This document shows positions 169-44,127 of a stretch of 64,000 nucleotides of DNA, piece by piece. The notes beneath the pieces are model-generated. The model made no database searches and was not told where the DNA came from. It worked only from the letters and a program-made list of their open reading frames with translations. The number at the start of each line of letters is the position of its first letter. The stretch's first letter is position 1. The DNA is from Halomonas halodenitrificans DSM 735. Its GTDB lineage: Bacteria > Pseudomonadota > Gammaproteobacteria > Pseudomonadales > Halomonadaceae. Both the position numbers and the translations under genes were made by a program. The DNA is taken from the NCBI RefSeq assembly GCF_000620045.1, contig NZ_KK211059.1, forward strand, positions 51,410-115,409, given 5' to 3'.

Positions 169-342
169 CCCTTCAGATTCTTGATCGTGGGCCAGGGCAC
201 AAGCCTGGTTGCTGACGACTCCGTCACACCGCGTTCCTGTCTCAACAGATTGCATTATTTCCCCGGTCAGGCCAGGGCTCGAGATATGAGCCGTAGTGTC
301 CGCCCGGCTATTCCTGTTCGTTTGAGTGCGCTATGGTGCCTC

Positions 343-428
343 CTGGACACGGGGTGCGGCCGCGGCCGCTGAGATGATACCCGTCGAACCTGATCCAGTT
401 CACACTGGCGAAGGGATGTCGGCCGACT
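343..428 (+). promoter_or_regulatory. TPP riboswitch (THI element)
   Basis: The conserved core reads GCTGAGATGATACCC, then GAACCTGATCCAGTT, then GGCGAAGGGA. This is the hallmark of the thiamine pyrophosphate aptamer. It sits 40-120 bases upstream of the start of the SDR gene at 467. A short GC-rich hairpin (about 433-452) lies between the aptamer and the Shine-Dalgarno AGGAG (457-461) and has no T-run, so control is more likely at translation than by termination. Exact ends are approximate. Confidence 0.93.
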
Positions 429-466
429 CCAGCGCGGCGCCCTTTGCCGCGTACCCAGGAGTCGTC

Positions 467-4135: not shown

Positions 4136-4228
4136 GACGTTCTCCCTAGCATGGAAAGGCCCGGTGCGATGCCGAGCGTCGCTACGAGAGGACGCAGTTG
4201 CGTTGGGTGAGAAACGTGGCCGTATGGC

Positions 4229-4333
4229 ACTTCCTTCCCTTCGCCGGCATGACCCGGATCAGGTTCGAAGGGTTACCGGCAGCGCGTCGTCTGGACACGG
4301 CGTCGGAGTCTCAGTCCGTCAGGACCCCCCTAG
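4229..4333 (-). promoter_or_regulatory. TPP riboswitch (THI element) for the symporter
   Basis: On the minus strand the conserved pieces appear in order: GGACTGAGACTCC, TAACCCTTCGAACCTGATC, then GCCGGCGAAGGGAAGG. The aptamer ends about 93 bases before the symporter start, which leaves room for an expression platform. Ends are approximate. Confidence 0.95.
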
Positions 4334-4503
4334 GAATGGATGCCAGCTTAGGGCCCCGGCGTCACGGGGTCAACACGGTGCGATGGCCCGCTGAAAACCG
4401 CCAGGGCCCGCTTGAATCGGTAGGGCATCGCCCGCATATCGTTAGCAGCTTAGTGATTGCGGCAGCCCCGCACTCAAACCCCGAATCGTTTCAAGGATTG
4501 CGC

Positions 4504-26072: not shown

Positions 26073-26846
26073 TCAGGGTGTCGGCAGGCGCACGGCATGC
26101 AGCAGGAACTCGCGATTGCCGTCGCCGCCGAGCAAGGGGCTCTCCTGCCAGTGGCGTATCTCGAGGCCGAGCGGTGCGCAGCAGGCGCGAATGCGCTTCT
26201 CCACCTCGGCATAGCGGGTCGGGTCGGCGACCAGGCCCCGGGCGTTGATACCCCCGGGGCCTACCTCGAACTGTGGCTTGACCAGGCTGACAAGCTCGCC
26301 CCCGGACGGCAGCAGGGCGGCGACCTGGGGCAGGATCAGTGTCTGGGAGATAAAGGAGACGTCCATCACCGCGAGGTCGGGCCCCGAGGCCTGGCGGTCG
26401 GCGATGGCTTCCCTCAGTCGCGCATCCGCGGTCATGGCGCGGGCATTAAGGCCCTCCAGGCAGGTGATCCGAGGATCGTCGCGCAGGCTGGGGTCGAGCT
26501 GGTCATGGCCCACTTCCACACCGATCACATGGCGTGCCCCCCGGGACAGGGCGCAGTCGGTGAAGCCACCGGTCGACTGGCCCACGTCCAGCACCAACCG
26601 GTCGGCGAGCGCGAGCCCGAGCGTGTCGATGAGTGCCTCGAGCTTGAGGCCGGCGCGGGATACATAGCGCTCCTCGGGGTCCGCCTCCACCGTCAGTTGC
26701 GTGCTATCCGGCAGCTTTTCGCCGGGCTTGGCGAGCACTTGACCGGAGTCGGCCAGGCGCACCCGGCCATGGCGAATCAGTCGCTGGGCGCGGGTACGTG
26801 AACGGGCCAGGCCCTGGGTGACGAGCAGCATATCGAGGCGAGGCAT
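26073..26846 (-). CDS. tlyA: TlyA-family rRNA 2'-O-methyltransferase (hemolysin-like)
   Basis: The 257-residue protein joins an N-terminal S4 RNA-binding domain (residues 2-64) to a FtsJ-like methyltransferase with SAM motif DVGQSTGGFTDC near residue 87 and a Lys-Asp-Lys-type core (YVSRAGLKLEAL, AVMDVSFIS, LVKPQFEVG). TlyA proteins methylate 2'-O of cytidines in 16S and/or 23S rRNA; hemolysin naming is historical. The GASTGG of many members is GQSTGG here. It is a single gene, convergent with mscK. Confidence 0.9.
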   Translation of the reverse strand: MPRLDMLLVTQGLARSRTRAQRLIRHGRVRLADSGQVLAKPGEKLPDSTQLTVEADPEERYVSRAGLKLEALIDTLGLALADRLVLDVGQSTGGFTDCALSRGARHVIGVEVGHDQLDPSLRDDPRITCLEGLNARAMTADARLREAIADRQASGPDLAVMDVSFISQTLILPQVAALLPSGGELVSLVKPQFEVGPGGINARGLVADPTRYAEVEKRIRACCAPLGLEIRHWQESPLLGGDGNREFLLHAVRLPTP

Positions 26847-26913
26847 GGGGGCTCCGGTCGGGGAAAGAAGCCGCCATTATAGCCACCCAGAGGCCTTCGT
26901 TGGTGTGCCGGGA

Positions 26914-28962
26914 TCAAGGCCCCTCGTCCGGCCCCTCGGCGGCCTGCAGGTCGGTGGGCGGAATGCGGTCCGCCCCCCAGCTCCGGTAGATATAGTCGGC
27001 GACGCGGTCGAGCTCGGCCTGACTGATCTCGGCCAGCTCGCCGCGCTCCAGGGGATCGTAGTGGAAGATATACAGCCTCGACGCGAACTGCTCGAAGGGC
27101 AGTGACGACTCGCCGAAGCGCTCGCCGTGGTCGGAGGTGCTGACCTTGATGCCATCTCCCCAGTCCTGGCCGCTGTCGTTGTTGGGGTTGAAGAAGTAGA
27201 CCCGCATCACGTCAGAGGGGTCGAGGTTGACCCTGAGCATGGTGATCGCGTGCCAGCCGATAAAGCGCGCGGCGCTATCGGTGACCGCAATGCCCGCCGG
27301 TTGCGGATGAATAAGCGGCTGACTGCCGTTGTAGTAGGGGTGATAGCTGGCATAGAAATGGCGCAGGAAGGTGTCCAGCTCATCCAGCTGCCCCGTGGCC
27401 ACGTCGACGTTGATGCGAAAGCCGCGTCCCGACCACCAGCCATGGAATTCGGGGTTGACCCAGCGGTGCGGGTCACCCTCGCGGCCGATGCAGCGGCGCC
27501 CCATCTCGCCATAGATGCGGTCCAGGTGAGGTACCACGATCAAGGATACCGGGTCGAGATCCATGGGTAGCGTCTGGGCCACACCCGAGAGGCTGGCCAT
27601 GGAGGACAGGGGCATGCCCTCGAAGTGAATGATGATTTCGTCGTCCCGGGCCGCCCAGACCACCATCTGCAGCAGGTAGTCGGGATCGTTGTAGGCCCAC
27701 ATGGAGAGCGCCCGGGCGGATTGGCAGGTCGGGTTGTTGCCCTGGCCCACGCCCAGCGGCTGGCCGAGCATGCACAGGACGCCCTCGAGCAGTCGTGCCC
27801 GCGGCGAGACGGCTTCGCCGAAGGCCAGGTTCAGCCTCGCCTGGGACCATTCGGTGAGTGTCAGGCCCAGCTGGCGCCACATGGCCGGCGCGACCGGTGG
27901 CTGGTAGAGAATGCCGCGCTCGAGCATCAGGGCCAGGCCATAGGCGGCCTGGGGCGTGGCCGAGTGTACGCCGCCGCGAATCAGCGCCGTGACCAGCTCG
28001 CGGTAGCAGAGCAGGCAGTCGCGTCCGGTGGAGGAGAGCCCCAGCGCCTCCGCCAGCAGGTGGTCGTTGTGTTCCAGAAGGTGGCGCAACAGCACGGGGT
28101 GATAGGGGGAGACCAGGCCGGTATCGTGCATGGCGCGGGCAAACCCGGTGGCTTCGCCCTGCAGGGCGGTGGCATCCATGCGGGACAGGCGTTCGCGATA
28201 GACCTCCAGGCCGGGGTCCTCGCGACAGGCACGGGTGGGCCCGAACAGCGAGCTGACCAGGCGGTCGGCCCCCTGTCCGCTGGCGCCCAGGTCGATCGAG
28301 GGATCGGCCTGGCAGATGGCAATCTGGGTGATCATCCGCTTGACCGGCTCGACCTGTATCGGGCGCTGCTCGAGGATGCGCCAGATCTCCTCGATCAGGC
28401 GATCGATAATATGCTCATAGCCGATACGCTCGGCAAGGTGCCGAAACAGGTGACGAGGCACCTGGGCGAGCCGCCCCTGGGTCTCGCGCTCGGCCTCGCT
28501 GGGCGCGCCGAACAGCAGCCAGAGGTTGATGGCCATCGCCTGGGTCAGATAGTGGTGGGCCTGCTCCGCGGAAATCGCGGTGTGGAGGTATTCCTCCTTG
28601 GCGACCGCCAGCAGGCGCAGTTCGCTGAGTGCCTCGATCACCACGATGTTGGGGTCGGCACTCTTCAGCGCGTGGGTGGTAAGGGAGGGCACCAGATACT
28701 GGGGCGTCTCCCAGTCGGAGCCGGCGAAGATGCCGGCCCGTTCGAGTCTCTGGACGCGGGCTTCGACGGCGGCGGCACCGCCCTCCTGAAGCAGCACGCG
28801 GCGTGCGGTATCGAGCACTCGGGGGAGCTTGCCGGGCTTGGCGAAGTCTTGCGCCTCTTCGAACAGGGAGATTGCCGCATCGAGCTTCTCCAGCAAGAGG
28901 CGAAGCTTGGTATCGTCGGGTGGCGTGGCGCCACCCGCTTGAGTGTCGTCATGCGTTGTCAC
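26914..28962 (-). CDS. Uncharacterised 682-residue protein with papain-like Cys-His-Asn motifs
   Basis: I do not recognise a named family. The protein has no signal peptide or membrane helix. The first ~370 residues are mostly helical. The C-terminal part carries three segments in the order of papain-fold enzymes: GNNPTCQSARALSMWAY with Cys413, GWHAITMLRV with His571 and MRVYFFNPNNDSGQDWG with Asn592 or Asn594. These resemble the CxS-helix, HAV and NSWGxxWG blocks of papain-type proteases, but this is by eye only. It follows the ATP-grasp gene on the same strand after a 133-base gap, so the two may form a bond-making and bond-breaking or modifying pair. A transglutaminase-like fold is the main alternative. 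Confidence 0.7.
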   Translation of the reverse strand: MTTHDDTQAGGATPPDDTKLRLLLEKLDAAISLFEEAQDFAKPGKLPRVLDTARRVLLQEGGAAAVEARVQRLERAGIFAGSDWETPQYLVPSLTTHALKSADPNIVVIEALSELRLLAVAKEEYLHTAISAEQAHHYLTQAMAINLWLLFGAPSEAERETQGRLAQVPRHLFRHLAERIGYEHIIDRLIEEIWRILEQRPIQVEPVKRMITQIAICQADPSIDLGASGQGADRLVSSLFGPTRACREDPGLEVYRERLSRMDATALQGEATGFARAMHDTGLVSPYHPVLLRHLLEHNDHLLAEALGLSSTGRDCLLCYRELVTALIRGGVHSATPQAAYGLALMLERGILYQPPVAPAMWRQLGLTLTEWSQARLNLAFGEAVSPRARLLEGVLCMLGQPLGVGQGNNPTCQSARALSMWAYNDPDYLLQMVVWAARDDEIIIHFEGMPLSSMASLSGVAQTLPMDLDPVSLIVVPHLDRIYGEMGRRCIGREGDPHRWVNPEFHGWWSGRGFRINVDVATGQLDELDTFLRHFYASYHPYYNGSQPLIHPQPAGIAVTDSAARFIGWHAITMLRVNLDPSDVMRVYFFNPNNDSGQDWGDGIKVSTSDHGERFGESSLPFEQFASRLYIFHYDPLERGELAEISQAELDRVADYIYRSWGADRIPPTDLQAAEGPDEGP

Positions 28963-29051
28963 GCTGACTCCTTGTCGTCAGGCCGTCATGGCTACCCATG
29001 ACGCCTAGATCGGGCGAAGAAATCAAGCTAATGCCTCGCTGAATATCTTGG

Positions 29052-29103
29052 CTCAGACATCCCTTGGCTTACTTTTAGCTTAGACATGTTCTGTCTTAGA
29101 CAT
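29052..29103 (-). repeat. ATGTCTRAG direct repeats between ATP-grasp and papain-like genes
   Basis: Three copies of ATGTCT(A/G)AG are read on the minus strand (29095-29103, 29079-29087, 29052-29060). The first overlaps the ATP-grasp stop codon. They could be binding sites or the result of local duplication. Confidence 0.6.
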
Positions 29104-30319
29104 AGAAGTCGGTCTCTTCCAGCTGCTTGAGCAGCTCCTTCATGCGCGCCGCCTCATCGCCCTTGAAGTAGACCAGGCCCCAGTGCGTGCCGAAGGCGGT
29201 CCGCTTGGTGACCGTTTCCTCCAGCGGTGCCGTCAGCTCGTGGGACTCGAAGTAGGGGTCGTCCTCGACCTCTTCGGGGATCTCCAGCTTGCTGACGACT
29301 CGGCGCCGTGGGTATACCCCGAAACAGCCGGCGTAGCCATCGGCGTCCTCGACCTCCCTGGGGAAGAACTCGGCGACCTCTTCCGGCGTGCTCGTGGGGT
29401 CAAACACCAGCATCGAGGCCTGGTAGGCGTTGAAGCCATAGACCCGCTCGAGCAGCTCGAAGACCTTGAAGCCTGGCGGCCGATAGGCCACCTCGCCGAA
29501 GTACATTTCGCCATCGTTGGTGACGAAGTACTCGGGATGGATCAGGCCGAATTCGATGTCGAAGGCCTTGATCAGCTTCTCGATCTGGGCGGTGATCTGC
29601 GGGCGGTATTTCTCAAGCTCCGGGGAGGCCGGCACAAACACCGAATAGCCCAGGGTCACGTATTCGGAGATGTTGAGGAAGACGATCTTGCCGTTGTGGA
29701 TCCAGGCCTCCACCGCGAACTCCCAGCCGTCCAGGTGCGACTCCATCAGCACCGGGAATTCCTCCTCGGGAATGGTATCGACCTCGTCGGGGGTACGGAT
29801 CACCCGATGCCCCAGGCAGCCAGCCTTGTCGAAGGCCTTGAGGTGGATGGGGTCGTTGGGGTCGCCATCGAGCTTGAGCAGGGTCTGGTTGACCCGCTTG
29901 AGGAAGCGGATGACGTCTTCCTTGTCGTGGGCCTCCTCGAAGATGCCCACGCGGATGCCGCCAAGCTGGGCACGACGCTTCATCAGCGCCTTGTCGCGCA
30001 GCAGCAGCGACTGCCCGTAGAGCCGTGGGTTATCGAGCAGCACCGAGTTGATGGCGCCGGCCCATTCCACGGTTTCCTCGAACAGTGGAATGGCCACGTT
30101 GACGTCCATTTCCTTGAGGGTCTCGGCGATCTCCATGGAGCGGTCGTTCAGGCGCTCGAAGTTCCAGGGGACGTAGGGGATGTCATGCTGCTGGCAATAC
30201 TCTTCCGCCCAGTCGGGCGCCACCACAACGTAGCGTCGGTCGAAACTCTCGGCGGCTTCGACGGCATTCAGGCTCCAGCCCAGCAGGGCGATATGGCCCT
30301 TGTTCGGATCCTTTTTCAT
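29096..30319 (-). CDS. ATP-grasp superfamily protein
   Basis: The 407-residue protein begins with a Rossmann-like pre-ATP-grasp domain (HIALLGWSLNAVEAAESF), followed by central and C-terminal ATP-grasp lobes. MESHLDGWEFAVEAW and GLIHPEYFV precede the metal site GEVAYRPPG with Glu276 and Arg280; the usual Asn of E-x-N-x-R is Ala here. ATP-grasp enzymes join carboxylates to amines or thiols through acyl phosphates. The start at 30319 follows AGGAGG seven bases upstream. It is the first gene of a two-gene run with the papain-like protein. Product unknown; an amide-bond ligase is inferred. Confidence 0.85.
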   Translation of the reverse strand: MKKDPNKGHIALLGWSLNAVEAAESFDRRYVVVAPDWAEEYCQQHDIPYVPWNFERLNDRSMEIAETLKEMDVNVAIPLFEETVEWAGAINSVLLDNPRLYGQSLLLRDKALMKRRAQLGGIRVGIFEEAHDKEDVIRFLKRVNQTLLKLDGDPNDPIHLKAFDKAGCLGHRVIRTPDEVDTIPEEEFPVLMESHLDGWEFAVEAWIHNGKIVFLNISEYVTLGYSVFVPASPELEKYRPQITAQIEKLIKAFDIEFGLIHPEYFVTNDGEMYFGEVAYRPPGFKVFELLERVYGFNAYQASMLVFDPTSTPEEVAEFFPREVEDADGYAGCFGVYPRRRVVSKLEIPEEVEDDPYFESHELTAPLEETVTKRTAFGTHWGLVYFKGDEAARMKELLKQLEETDFYV

Positions 30320-30451
30320 GGGGCGCCTCCTGTTGTTCGCGATGGTCACTTTCCTCTCCAGGCCGTGACAAGGAAGGCGTAAGAGAGGGCATTCTGCATG
30401 CTACAGCACGTGACGCCGGTCTACATCCCGTAGCGAAGCGTTCGTGCGCTC

Positions 30452-30480
30452 TTGCCTGCATCCCGAGGCGCTGTTATAGT
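30452..30480 (+). promoter_or_regulatory. Sigma70-like promoter upstream of ffs
   Basis: TTGCCT and TATAGT are separated by exactly 17 bases. Transcription would start about 65 bases before the mature 4.5S RNA. Confidence 0.55.
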
Positions 30481-30554
30481 GCGCACTCTCTCGGCAAGAC
30501 GTTGATCGATAACGTCAATCGCGCCGAGTTGGCATCATCGTGATGCCGTGCTGT

Positions 30555-30667
30555 GGTGGCCCCGTCGGTCCTCCCGCAACGCTAAACTGCAAACCCCGCC
30601 AGGCCCGGAAGGGAGCAACGGTAGTGGTGGACGCGTGTGCCGGGATGTGGCTGTCGGGGCCGCCTCC
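30555..30667 (+). ncRNA. ffs: Signal recognition particle RNA (4.5S RNA)
   Basis: The SRP RNA core is unmistakable: CTCCCGCAACGCTA, then GCCAGGCCCGGAAGGGAGCA, the Ffh-binding tip with the GGAA tetraloop, and then ACGCGTGTGCCGGGATG. The ends GGTGGCCCC and GGGGCCGCC pair to close the hairpin. With Ffh it targets membrane proteins to the translocon. The ends given are those of the paired structure and may be off by a few bases. A T-rich stretch (ATTTTGGG) follows. The rest of the gap to 30947 has a run of ten C (30684-30693) and a pyrimidine-rich stretch but no gene. Confidence 0.95.
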
Positions 30668-30947
30668 ATTTTGGGCAGCGTCACCCCCCCCCCTTATCTT
30701 TATCCCCTCGACTGTATTCCCCCCTATTCTTTTCGATTCTCGGACTCCCCGTTTTCGGGACGTCGGTGATCTGATGGCTCAGTGGTCGTTCGGGTGTTAA
30801 CCCCCAGAGTAGCTGCTAAACGGACGTTCGTTGGAAAGTCGTATTGGCTGCGGCCGCGAAGCGCGCTAAGGTGCAGGGCCGGCCTTTTCAAGGCGGTTCA
30901 GAAGCTCATCGATCGAAACAACTCAAATGAATAGAAGAGGGAACACC

Positions 30948-31910
30948 ATGATGCGGCGTCGAATTCTCTCCGCGGTGCTGGGCTCCATGCTGGTGGCCGG
31001 CGTGGCACAGGCCGAGACCGTGAACCTGGGCATCACCCAGATAGTCGAGCACCCGGCCCTGGATGCCAGTCGCCAGGGGGCCCTGGACGAGCTCGCCGAG
31101 CGTGGCTATGTCGAGGGCGACAACCTCGAGGTCGACTTCCAGAACGCCCAGGGGGATACGTCCATTGCCGCCCAGATCGCGCGCAAGTTTGCGGGCGATC
31201 GTCCGGATCTGGTGCTGGCCATTAGCACTCCCTCGGCCCAGGCCGCGGCCTCGGCGCTGCAGGATGATATCCCCGTTGTGTTTACCGCCGTCACCGATCC
31301 GCTGATCGCCAAGCTGGTGACCGACATGGAGGCCCCCGGCGCCAATATCACCGGGGTAGTGGATGCGCCGCCCCTGAAGGCGCAGCTGCAGCTGATCCGT
31401 GACATGTTCCCCGAGGCCGAGCGGCTGGGAGTCATCTACAACCCCGGCGAGGCGAACTCCGTTTCCCAGGCCGAGAAGCTCAATGAGATGGCGCCCGAGC
31501 TCGATTTCGAACTGGTCGAGGTAACCGCCTCGCGCACCTCCGAGGTGATGGGAGCCGCACGCAGCCTGGCTGGCCGTGCCGACGCCATCTATGTACCGGT
31601 AGACAACACCGTGGTCTCGGCCCTGGAGAGCGTGTTGAAGGTCGGCTATGACGCCGATATTCCGGTCTTCACCGGCGACAACTCCTCCGTCGAGCGCGGT
31701 GCCCTGGCGTCTCTGGGCTTCAGCTACTACGACATGGGGCGCCAGACCGGCGGGATGATGGCCGATATCCTGGGAGGTGAGAAGGCCGGCGACCTGTCGG
31801 TGGGCACCGTCGAGAAGCTCGAGCTGATCCTGAACCGTGATGCCGCCGAGCAGATCGGTTATGAGATCCCGGCCGAGTTCGAGGAACAGGCGGTCGAGAT
31901 CTTCGAGTAA
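30948..31910 (+). CDS. ABC transporter substrate-binding protein (DUF534/TrpX type)
   Basis: The 320-residue protein has a signal peptide (RRRILSAVLGSMLVAGVAQA) and the fold of ABC_sub_bind proteins. Blocks include QIVEHPALDASRQGALDEL, DLVLAISTPSAQAA and VPVDNTVVSALESV, all typical of the TrpX/DUF534 family, some of which bind tryptophan or tyrosine. The start at 30948 follows AAGAGG. It heads a tightly packed three-gene unit with a permease and ATPase. An aromatic amino acid or related ligand is possible but not shown by the sequence. Confidence 0.9.
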   Translation: MMRRRILSAVLGSMLVAGVAQAETVNLGITQIVEHPALDASRQGALDELAERGYVEGDNLEVDFQNAQGDTSIAAQIARKFAGDRPDLVLAISTPSAQAAASALQDDIPVVFTAVTDPLIAKLVTDMEAPGANITGVVDAPPLKAQLQLIRDMFPEAERLGVIYNPGEANSVSQAEKLNEMAPELDFELVEVTASRTSEVMGAARSLAGRADAIYVPVDNTVVSALESVLKVGYDADIPVFTGDNSSVERGALASLGFSYYDMGRQTGGMMADILGGEKAGDLSVGTVEKLELILNRDAAEQIGYEIPAEFEEQAVEIFE

Positions 31911-32791
31911 TGAGCCTTATTGCCTTTCTAGGGGCCATCGAGCTTGGCCTCATCTTCGGTTTCGTGGCGCTCGGCGTTTACCTCTCCTTCCGCGTTCTCG
32001 ACTTTCCCGACCTGACCGTCGACGGCAGTTTCCCCCTGGGGGCTGCCGTGGCGGCGGTGTGGATCGTGGGCGGCGGCAATCCCTGGGTGGGTACCGGCCT
32101 GGCGGTGATTGCCGGTGCCATGGCCGGCACGGTGACCGCCTGGATGGCGGTGAAGCTGAAGATACTCAATCTGCTGGCGTCGATCCTGTCGATGATCGCG
32201 CTCTACTCAATCAACCTCCGGGTGATGGGGCGGCCCAATATTGCGCTGCTGACCGATGAGACCATCTTCACGCCGCTGGAGGCGTTGCCGGTCAGTCGCT
32301 ATGTGATCTTTCCGCTGGCGATCTTCGCGGGCCTGGTGGTGGTCACGGCCCTGCTCAACCGCTTTCTCAACAGCGAAGTGGGCCTGGGGATGCGTGCCAC
32401 GGGCGAGAATGCGCGCATGGCCTCGGGCAACGGCATCAACACCTCGGTCATGGTGCTTTCCGGCATGGCCCTCTCCAATGCCCTGGTGGCGCTGGGTGGT
32501 GCCTTGTTCGCCCAGAGCCAGGGCAGCGCCGACGTCACAATGGGGGTGGGTACCATCGTGGTGGGCCTGGCGGCGGTGATCGGCGGCCAGTCACTGATCC
32601 CGGGGCGTACCATCCTGGTGGCTACCCTGGCCTGCATCTTCGGTTCCATCCTCTATCGCCTGATGGTGGCGGTGGCGCTCAATGCCGACTTTATCGGCCT
32701 CAAGGCCCAGGATCTCAACCTGGTCACGGCGCTGCTGGTCGGTTTCGCGCTGGTGCTCCCGCGGCTCAAGCTCAGGAGGCGCAGCGCATGA
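31910..32791 (+). CDS. ABC transporter permease (TrpY type)
   Basis: The 293-residue membrane protein has about nine hydrophobic helices and resembles branched-chain/ribose-type permeases. It contains RVLDFPDLTVDGSFPLGAA near the N-terminus and the cytoplasmic coupling segment LGMRATGENARMASGNGIN, both characteristic of the permeases paired with DUF534 binding proteins. Its start overlaps the stop of the binding-protein gene by one base (TAATG) and its end overlaps the ATPase gene by four bases. Confidence 0.92.
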   Translation: MSLIAFLGAIELGLIFGFVALGVYLSFRVLDFPDLTVDGSFPLGAAVAAVWIVGGGNPWVGTGLAVIAGAMAGTVTAWMAVKLKILNLLASILSMIALYSINLRVMGRPNIALLTDETIFTPLEALPVSRYVIFPLAIFAGLVVVTALLNRFLNSEVGLGMRATGENARMASGNGINTSVMVLSGMALSNALVALGGALFAQSQGSADVTMGVGTIVVGLAAVIGGQSLIPGRTILVATLACIFGSILYRLMVAVALNADFIGLKAQDLNLVTALLVGFALVLPRLKLRRRSA

Positions 32792-43080: not shown

Positions 43081-44127
43081 ATGCGTATCTATCACTCCGA
43101 CATGACCAAGGCGCGGCGCGCCCGGACCGAGCTCGACGGCGGCAAGCTGGTGGTGCCCTGGGAGTGTCCGGAGCGGGTCGACATGATCCTCGCGGCCCTG
43201 GGCGAGGCGGGGTTCACTGAAGTGGTCGAGCCGGCCGAATATGGGCTCGCGCCGGTGCTGGCGGTGCATGATGCCGATTACGTCGACTTCCTGGCGACCT
43301 GCTGGGATGACTGGCAGGCGCTGGGTCGAGATGGCGAGGCCATCGCCTGGGTCTGGCCCACCCGTACGCTGCCGGGGCGTCGGATTCCCGACTGCGTCGA
43401 TGGGCGTCTGGGGTACTACGCCCTGGGGGCGGACACCTCGATCTGTGAGGGTACCTTCGAGGCGGCCATGGCCAGCAAGGATGTGGCGCTCTCGGCGCTG
43501 GATCATGTGCTGGCAAGCGGCGAGGCGGCTTTCGGGCTGTGTCGCCCACCGGGCCATCATGCCGCGGTGGACCAGTTCGGCGGCTACTGTTTCTTCAACA
43601 ACGCCGCCGTCGCCGCCCAGCGCGCGCTGGATGCGGGGCTATCGCGAGTCGCCATCCTCGATGTGGATTTTCATCATGGCAATGGCACCCAGCAGATCTT
43701 CGAGCAGCGCAGCGACGTGCTGTTTATCTCGATCCACGGGGACCCCATGACGTGCTTTCCCTACTTCACGGGCCATGCCGACGAAGTGGGCGAGGGGGAC
43801 GGAGCGGGTTACACCGTGAACTACCCGCTGCCGAAGGGCAGCGGCGCCGAGGTGTGGTTCCATGTGCTGGAAGCCGCCAAGGAGCGCATCCGAGAGTCGG
43901 GCTGTGAGTTGCTGATCGTGTCGTTGGGAGTGGATACCTTCGAGGGTGACCCGATCAGTGCCTTCCGACTGAGCGGCGATGACTTCACCGCGATGGGGCG
44001 GCGCCTGGCGGCGCTGGGCCTGCCGACCCTGCTGTTGATGGAGGGCGGCTATGCGGTGGAGGAGATCGGCACCAACGTGGCCAACGTGCTGAGCGGTATT
44101 ACGGAGGGAGGGGACGAGCGCGGTTAA
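43081..44127 (+). CDS. Histone-deacetylase-family amidohydrolase (acetylpolyamine type)
   Basis: The 348-residue protein has the HDAC fold active site: CRPPGHHAAVDQFGGYCFFNN gives the paired His, LDVDFHHGNGTQQIF supplies two zinc ligands (Asp and His), and VDTFEGDP gives the third. Bacterial relatives remove acetyl groups from polyamines or related amines. It follows the LysR gene on the same strand after 137 bases, so it may belong to the same amine-related regulon. A terminator follows. Confidence 0.92.
   Translation: MRIYHSDMTKARRARTELDGGKLVVPWECPERVDMILAALGEAGFTEVVEPAEYGLAPVLAVHDADYVDFLATCWDDWQALGRDGEAIAWVWPTRTLPGRRIPDCVDGRLGYYALGADTSICEGTFEAAMASKDVALSALDHVLASGEAAFGLCRPPGHHAAVDQFGGYCFFNNAAVAAQRALDAGLSRVAILDVDFHHGNGTQQIFEQRSDVLFISIHGDPMTCFPYFTGHADEVGEGDGAGYTVNYPLPKGSGAEVWFHVLEAAKERIRESGCELLIVSLGVDTFEGDPISAFRLSGDDFTAMGRRLAALGLPTLLLMEGGYAVEEIGTNVANVLSGITEGGDERG

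Follow-up and report, generated by a model that had tools for sequence, protein, structure and literature searches.

What do a ligase gene and the unnamed gene that follows it do in Halomonas halodenitrificans DSM 735? The two genes, here called A and B, lie in a 64,000-nucleotide stretch of contig NZ_KK211059.1 (positions 51,410 to 115,409; hereafter the window), both on the minus strand, with A upstream of B and a 133-bp intergenic gap. An earlier note on this DNA had described them as an ATP-grasp gene and a 682-residue gene with segments resembling papain, and the genes, the gap, and the residues Cys413, His571, and Asn592 of B were all found as it had described them. The note held nothing about ectoine, and the new finding reported here is such a link: in the samples that we analyzed, A and B occur only in genomes that carry the ectoine synthase EctC. 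The two genes look like an unrecognized step of ectoine-related metabolism, and because of this link the pair is more interesting than the earlier note had said.

Distribution was analyzed in samples rather than in a full survey, namely, a class sample of 369 Gammaproteobacteria and an order sample of 194 genomes. B was found in 13 of the 369 Gammaproteobacteria (and in 11/398 Pseudomonadota). EctC was found in 53, including 13 out of 13 B carriers (Fisher test, P = 2.8e-12). In the order sample, A was present in 25 genomes and EctC in 94, and again EctC was present in 25 out of 25 A carriers (P = 2.0e-9). These tests treat genomes as independent, and the genomes share ancestry. One B carrier, G016, falls outside Gammaproteobacteria by its kinship label. 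A set of 39 genomes, selected for carrying A or B, was searched for A and B, EctC, EctA, and the deacetylase described below; EctC and EctA were each found in 39 out of 39. As a control, the betaine gene betA was searched. It was present in 4/13 B carriers and in 11/40 genomes with EctC but not B, both groups being searched completely, and in none of 27 genomes taken from the 316 that lack EctC. Since EctC was found in 13/13 B carriers compared to 4/13 for betA, the tie between B and EctC does not extend to betA, the only osmolyte gene used as a control. A literature search found, in those parts of the texts that it returned, no publication connecting the A/B pair with ectoine.

Some gene neighborhoods outside Halomonas show the same association. 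Neighbor clustering of 59 loci, together with family scans, brought out ectoine synthase (PF06339), a histone-deacetylase-family hydrolase (PF00850), and, at two loci, a GNAT protein. Five of the 46 EctC copies were less than 8 kb from A or B, compared to 0.33 expected (P = 2.6e-5), and the genomes concerned (G800, G894, G644, G809, and G748) represent five families. Similarly, 7 of the 28 copies of one deacetylase subfamily, in seven genomes, were less than 8 kb from A or B (expected, 0.25; P = 9e-9). The expected counts were derived from rounded genome sizes, and both tests are post hoc because it was as neighbors that the two families first came to attention. Given the well-supported branches of the A tree, the EctC label must have been gained or lost at least three times. 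At some loci, gene spacing suggests operons. A good example is L176, where the A and B genes overlap (8 bp) and only 1 bp separates B from EctC; at L144, 6 bp separate the deacetylase from B. At L164 and L172, the deacetylase, GNAT, A, and EctC are found together.

The neighboring EctC genes are of two sorts. In G809 and G644, the sole EctC found adjoins A, and EctA is far off or on another contig; therefore, it is the ectoine synthase itself that stands in the A neighborhood there. G748 resembles these two, although its genome has a completeness of 75%. The neighboring EctC of G800 and G894 is an extra copy. In an alignment, the Glu, Tyr, and His of the motifs are common to the five neighboring EctC copies (the L176 copy is cut at a contig end); we took them to be the iron-site residues described in the available part of PMC6344544, the placement of the residues being our own.

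Other observations were made on the same families. A second kind of EctC, in which HET and WYK motifs replace HIT and HYQ/HYK, was found in L150, L164, L172, L183, L189, L192, L196, L197, L200 to L203, L206, L207, L209, and L210, the copies in L207 and L209 being the same as those in L150 and L164. No EctC was found beside EctA in G070, G138, G174, G849, G872, G893, G906, and G912. GNAT adjoins a histone-deacetylase-family hydrolase in 5 of the 27 loci compared (L164, L172, L227, L229, and L234), whether or not A and EctC are there too. In L003 and L064, the histone-deacetylase-family gene close to the pair belongs to another subfamily (30 to 38% identity) and was not counted. Neighbor cluster 2, which consists of ABC ATPases of varied length with one scanned member of the molybdate type, was not used.

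The pairing of A with B, for which the earlier note had suggested a genome-context check, is kept. Both genes were present in 39/39 of the genomes selected for either one, less than 6 kb apart in 36 and farther apart in G894, G912, and G670. Halomonas elongata 153B, a laboratory ectoine producer, also has the two genes (L050). A long A match was found in the same locus for 85 of 95 B loci (L001 and L082, both included, are the window's own locus), none at an E value of 1e-10 was found in 8, and the other two were L081, which is cut by a contig end, and L054, which has an A fragment only. Start codons in the compared loci were assigned by script. C-terminal remnants of A lie upstream of B in L054 (5634-5947), L060 (5819-5938), L062 (5827-5946), L065 (5742-5963), and, weakly, L037 (5848-5946), all of them Halomonadaceae loci without an intact A there. 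Because these remnants persist, A was probably lost from several of the exceptional loci. Copy numbers reach five for B and three for A per genome; in G070, G174, and G138 (family f4), B is present three to five times and A two or three times.

Gene A is very likely an active carboxylate-amine ligase, a prediction made because of its Pfam match, its L-amino acid ligase fold, and two invariant Glu residues. The protein matches ATP-grasp_4 (PF13535) with 28.9 bits (curated cutoff, 27), and a profile of 48 homologues matched a phosphoribosylglycinamide synthetase entry, RizA, and BL00235 in the PDB at E values of 1.7e-4 to 7.4e-4. An AlphaFold2 model was obtained with a mean pLDDT (predicted local distance difference test) of 82, the region from 120 to 210 being of low confidence. 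When this model was searched with Foldseek, ranks 1 to 3 were taken by RizA (4wd3, the best) and BL00235 (E values of 1.8e-19 to 2.5e-16); with BL00235 as 3vot and BacD/YwfE as 3vmm, the L-amino acid ligases are the best matches of A, at template modeling (TM) scores of 0.59 to 0.65. A and RizA have in common two conserved Glu residues and an E-x-A-x-R motif (GEVAYR in A and GEIAMR in RizA); Glu273 and Glu286 of A, numbered from the GTG at 30349, are presumably the metal ligands. In the alignment, both proteins have Ala at a motif position that is occupied by Asn in many ATP-grasp enzymes. The L-amino acid ligases differ from A in sequence (12 to 18% identity) and structure (root mean square deviation [RMSD] of 6.8 to 8.7), and A has B as a partner. 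Fold and conserved residues thus support the identity of A as an ATP-grasp amide ligase, as the earlier note had it, and A would carry out an ATP-dependent ligation as in L-amino acid ligases.

Gene B is less well conserved than A (mean column identity, 65% versus 81%) and has no name. In Pfam, nothing was found at the cutoff, and among 50 members no match was better than an E value of 0.03. For the window protein, NCBIfam and PADLOC gave none, and the PDB held no usable sequence relative. A match to DUF2891 (E value of 0.058, residues 422 to 468) was dropped because the matched region excludes Cys413. The relatives listed by the search are the best 80 of at least 583 and are mostly Halomonadaceae, the nearest named one among the matches listed being an uncultured Halomonas record with 99% identity. 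Sequences interrupted by an in-frame stop (A of L067 and B of L040 and L092) were excluded from the alignments and retained in the motif scan.

In the structural model of B (mean pLDDT, 89), residues 16 to 400 are helical and are followed by a C-terminal part with a helix and strands. A Foldseek search with the whole model gave a best E value of 0.034 in the PDB; among viral models, the top match was a papain-like peptidase at an E value of 0.07, and in neither search was any match below 0.001. With a second-look aligner, ranks 1 to 15 went to calpain protease cores (Z scores of 7.4 to 8.2, 203 to 216 residues aligned, and RMSD of 4.3 to 4.7), all confined to residues 366 to 642, and ranks 28 and 33 to staphopains, matched over the C-terminal domain (Z scores of 5.6 to 5.7). 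A Z score of about 8 is near the noise level of this tool, which warns that such values are common, and for this reason the papain-like assignment leans also on residue conservation. Gln407, Gly408, Cys413, His571, Asn592, and Pro593 are identical in 50 out of 50 B sequences, the most distant of which is 39% identical to the window protein, and Cys413, His571, and Asn592 are also invariant in a 20-sequence alignment (20/20; both alignments include the window protein). The Gln/Cys, His, and Asn blocks were detected in 95 out of 95 B loci by the motif scan. In papain and calpain, a Gln precedes the Cys by six residues (Gln19 and Cys25 of papain), and an Asn-Pro follows a strand. The prediction of a C-terminal papain-like domain that bears all four of Gln, Cys, His, and Asn is supported, with a modest structural match. 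Fold match and secondary structure, Cys413 being at the start of a helix and His571 within a strand, would fit a contact between these two side chains. The resemblance proposed in the earlier note largely holds, and neither the poor conservation nor the missing pairing that would have spoken against it was found.

Several known systems resemble one or both genes in part. Calpains and staphopains have the same Gln-Cys-His-Asn order as B and are modest structural matches to its C-terminal domain, with Z scores near the noise level. However, their identity to B is 10 to 14%, and B differs in having an N-terminal helical domain, a ligase partner gene, and no match to the calpain Pfam family: Peptidase_C2 was not listed for the window protein at an E value of 1 or for any of 50 members at 0.1. 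Glutathionylspermidine synthetase/amidase combines an ATP-grasp ligase and a papain-like CHAP amidase, acting on the same amide, in one protein. The likeness to A and B is that of a ligase with an amidase, whereas that enzyme is a fused protein with an ATP-grasp family of its own and A and B are two genes; the CHAP amidase and GSP-synthetase families were not listed for A or B at an E value of 1. An amidoligase survey by Iyer and others (2009) is cited in the available part of PMC10318531.

Table 1 Features of the A/B locus and other window features mentioned in the text
Feature	Window position	Strand	Basis
Gene A, predicted ATP-grasp carboxylate-amine ligase	29096..30319	-	407 aa from ATG at 30319
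A Glu273, predicted metal-binding Glu 1	29531..29533	-	48/48 rows; aligned with Glu of RizA HLE
A Glu286, predicted metal-binding Glu 2	29492..29494	-	48/48 rows; RizA alignment
Gene B, 682-aa protein of unnamed family, partner of A	26914..28962	-	Open reading frame (ORF) and co-occurrence
B residues 16-372, helical, alpha-solenoid-like domain	27847..28917	-	All-helical in model; ARM/HEAT/PUF-like matches weak and nonsignificant
B residues 374-636, predicted papain-like domain	27055..27843	-	Calpain cores, Z 7.4-8.2; staphopains, Z 5.6-5.7
B Gln407, predicted oxyanion-hole residue, six before Cys413	27742..27744	-	50/50
B Cys413, predicted nucleophile, starts helix 413-425	27724..27726	-	Model and 50/50
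B His571, within strand 567-580	27250..27252	-	Model and 50/50
B Asn592, right after strand 586-591, then Pro	27187..27189	-	Model and 50/50
ffs (signal recognition particle RNA)	30563-30659	+	Rfam, E 1.5e-13
Distant histone-deacetylase-family match, about 13 kb from A	43432-44109	+	38% identity to L144 protein; G000:C5:94841-95518
tRNA-Ser call, probably false	32115-32203	+	ARAGORN; within permease-like ORF 31910-32791
Thiamine pyrophosphate (TPP) riboswitch	340-433	+	
TPP riboswitch	4219-4341	-	

The surroundings of the pair in the window are listed in Table 1. The ORF of A is also listed from a GTG at 30349 (417 aa), in which the ATG at 30319 is codon 11, and homologues such as L041 begin where this ATG falls. 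In a scan of 26700-30900, no terminator-like site was found on the minus strand, and the promoter scan of the same region gave one plus-strand site compared to 0.6 expected. The earlier note had suspected that the neighboring ffs was there by chance. This is probably so because ffs was below threshold in the stretches of all eight non-Halomonas A/B loci scanned (0/8). The tRNA-Ser call is probably false because Rfam lists no tRNA there at threshold. The two TPP riboswitches are on opposite strands less than 4 kb apart.

How might the two proteins work together? Our preferred explanation, advanced tentatively and at a little under an even chance, is that the two enzymes form a module of ectoine producers in which A would make an amide connected with ectoine metabolism and B would cleave or transfer it. 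A would activate a carboxylate with ATP and join it to an amine in the manner of L-amino acid ligases. B, as a papain-like Cys-His-Asn enzyme, would hydrolyze or transfer the acyl group of the same kind of amide through a thioester, and its helical domain may hold the substrate or a partner. The metabolite would most likely meet the ectoine pathway at ectoine, diaminobutyrate, or an N-acetyl form. It is placed there because the genes co-occur only with EctC and EctA in the samples, and because some copies cluster with EctC and the deacetylase, two of them also with GNAT.

Several points weigh against this explanation. First, 40 of the 53 EctC genomes lack B, which means that ectoine synthesis can proceed without B. 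Second, the genes are often apart. In the window genome, A and B are on contig C5 and EctC and EctA are on contig C6, so that the pair is not adjacent to ectABC; the deacetylase subfamily is absent from this genome (best identity, 41%). No EctC was found less than 8 kb from A or B in 34 of the 39 genomes, and two of the other five, G809 and G894, have EctC near A but not near B, which lies elsewhere. Third, the Fisher tests take no account of shared ancestry, and the clustering tests, besides being post hoc, used a deacetylase query that was itself a neighbor gene. Fourth, the Foldseek matches of B are not significant (best E value of 0.034), its aligner Z scores of about 8 are at a commonly seen level, and a large helical domain such as that of B is unusual for a small-molecule amidase. 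Finally, the reaction, its direction, and its substrate are what we infer for A and B.

The helical domain of B also makes a protein tag the main rival, one that we judge unlikely, with a chance that is nonetheless appreciable. Here A would tag a protein with an amino acid or peptide, and B, its helical domain binding proteins, would remove the tag; the target could be a protein of the ectoine pathway or of osmotic stress. Tubulin offers a parallel, with tyrosine ligases of the ATP-grasp type adding and vasohibins, which are cysteine peptidases, removing. The size of the helical domain (about 350 residues), the best structural matches of B to calpains, which cleave proteins, and the stronger conservation of A than of B (81% versus 65%) are in favor of a tag, but the closest folds to A are ligases of free amino acids, no protein target stands out near the pair, and the recurrent identified neighbors outside Halomonas are metabolic.

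A lower probability is given to hitch-hiking in the salt niche, that is, to the pair serving an unrelated high-salt process and overlapping with EctC since both mark halophiles. The A/B genomes do not represent lineages at random, and nearby ect genes are absent from most A/B loci, as such overlap would have it. Against it are the presence of EctC in 13/13 B carriers compared to 4/13 for betA, the placement of EctC less than 8 kb from A or B in five families, and the three or more label changes on the tree.

Rather doubtful is the proposal that A, B, and the adjacent EctC make a new ectoine-type solute, such as acyl-ectoines or ectoine conjugates. A would use a carboxylate other than acetate to form an N-acyl amide on diaminobutyrate or ectoine, EctC would close the ring, and B would trim or exchange the acyl group. 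If true, this would account for some of the extra "solitary" EctC genes, the function of which is left unresolved in the available text of a review (PMC5924519) and of a structural study (PMC6344544). A and B are not mentioned in the text available from these two sources on ectoine genes and solitary EctC, whereas all sampled A/B carriers have EctC and EctA, and five genomes have EctC less than 8 kb away.

Only a slim chance is left for a role in the turnover or control of ectoine, for example, with B opening ectoine or an acylated diaminobutyrate, A re-forming the amide, and the deacetylase removing the acetyl group. This would fit the deacetylase subfamily beside A or B in seven genomes and its company of GNAT, A, and EctC at L164 and L172. 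However, nothing seen indicates a catabolic operon, doeA and doeB, which are diagnostic of the known ectoine breakdown, not having been searched for. A phage-borne origin or a known defense system was rejected because the phage search gave no match, the plasmid search gave one Halomonas plasmid record without an annotated feature at the matched position, and PADLOC gave nothing usable for B.

If the preferred explanation of A and B as an amide-making and amide-cleaving or -transferring module is considered again, its meaning reaches beyond this locus. The protein family that B represents matched nothing at the cutoff of the Pfam copy used. Ectoine is produced industrially and is one of the main compounds that protect bacteria from salt. 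The A/B pair gives some of the solitary EctC proteins partners that can be tested and, being seen only in carriers of ectoine genes among the genomes sampled, suggests that a branch or side step of ectoine metabolism has been missed.

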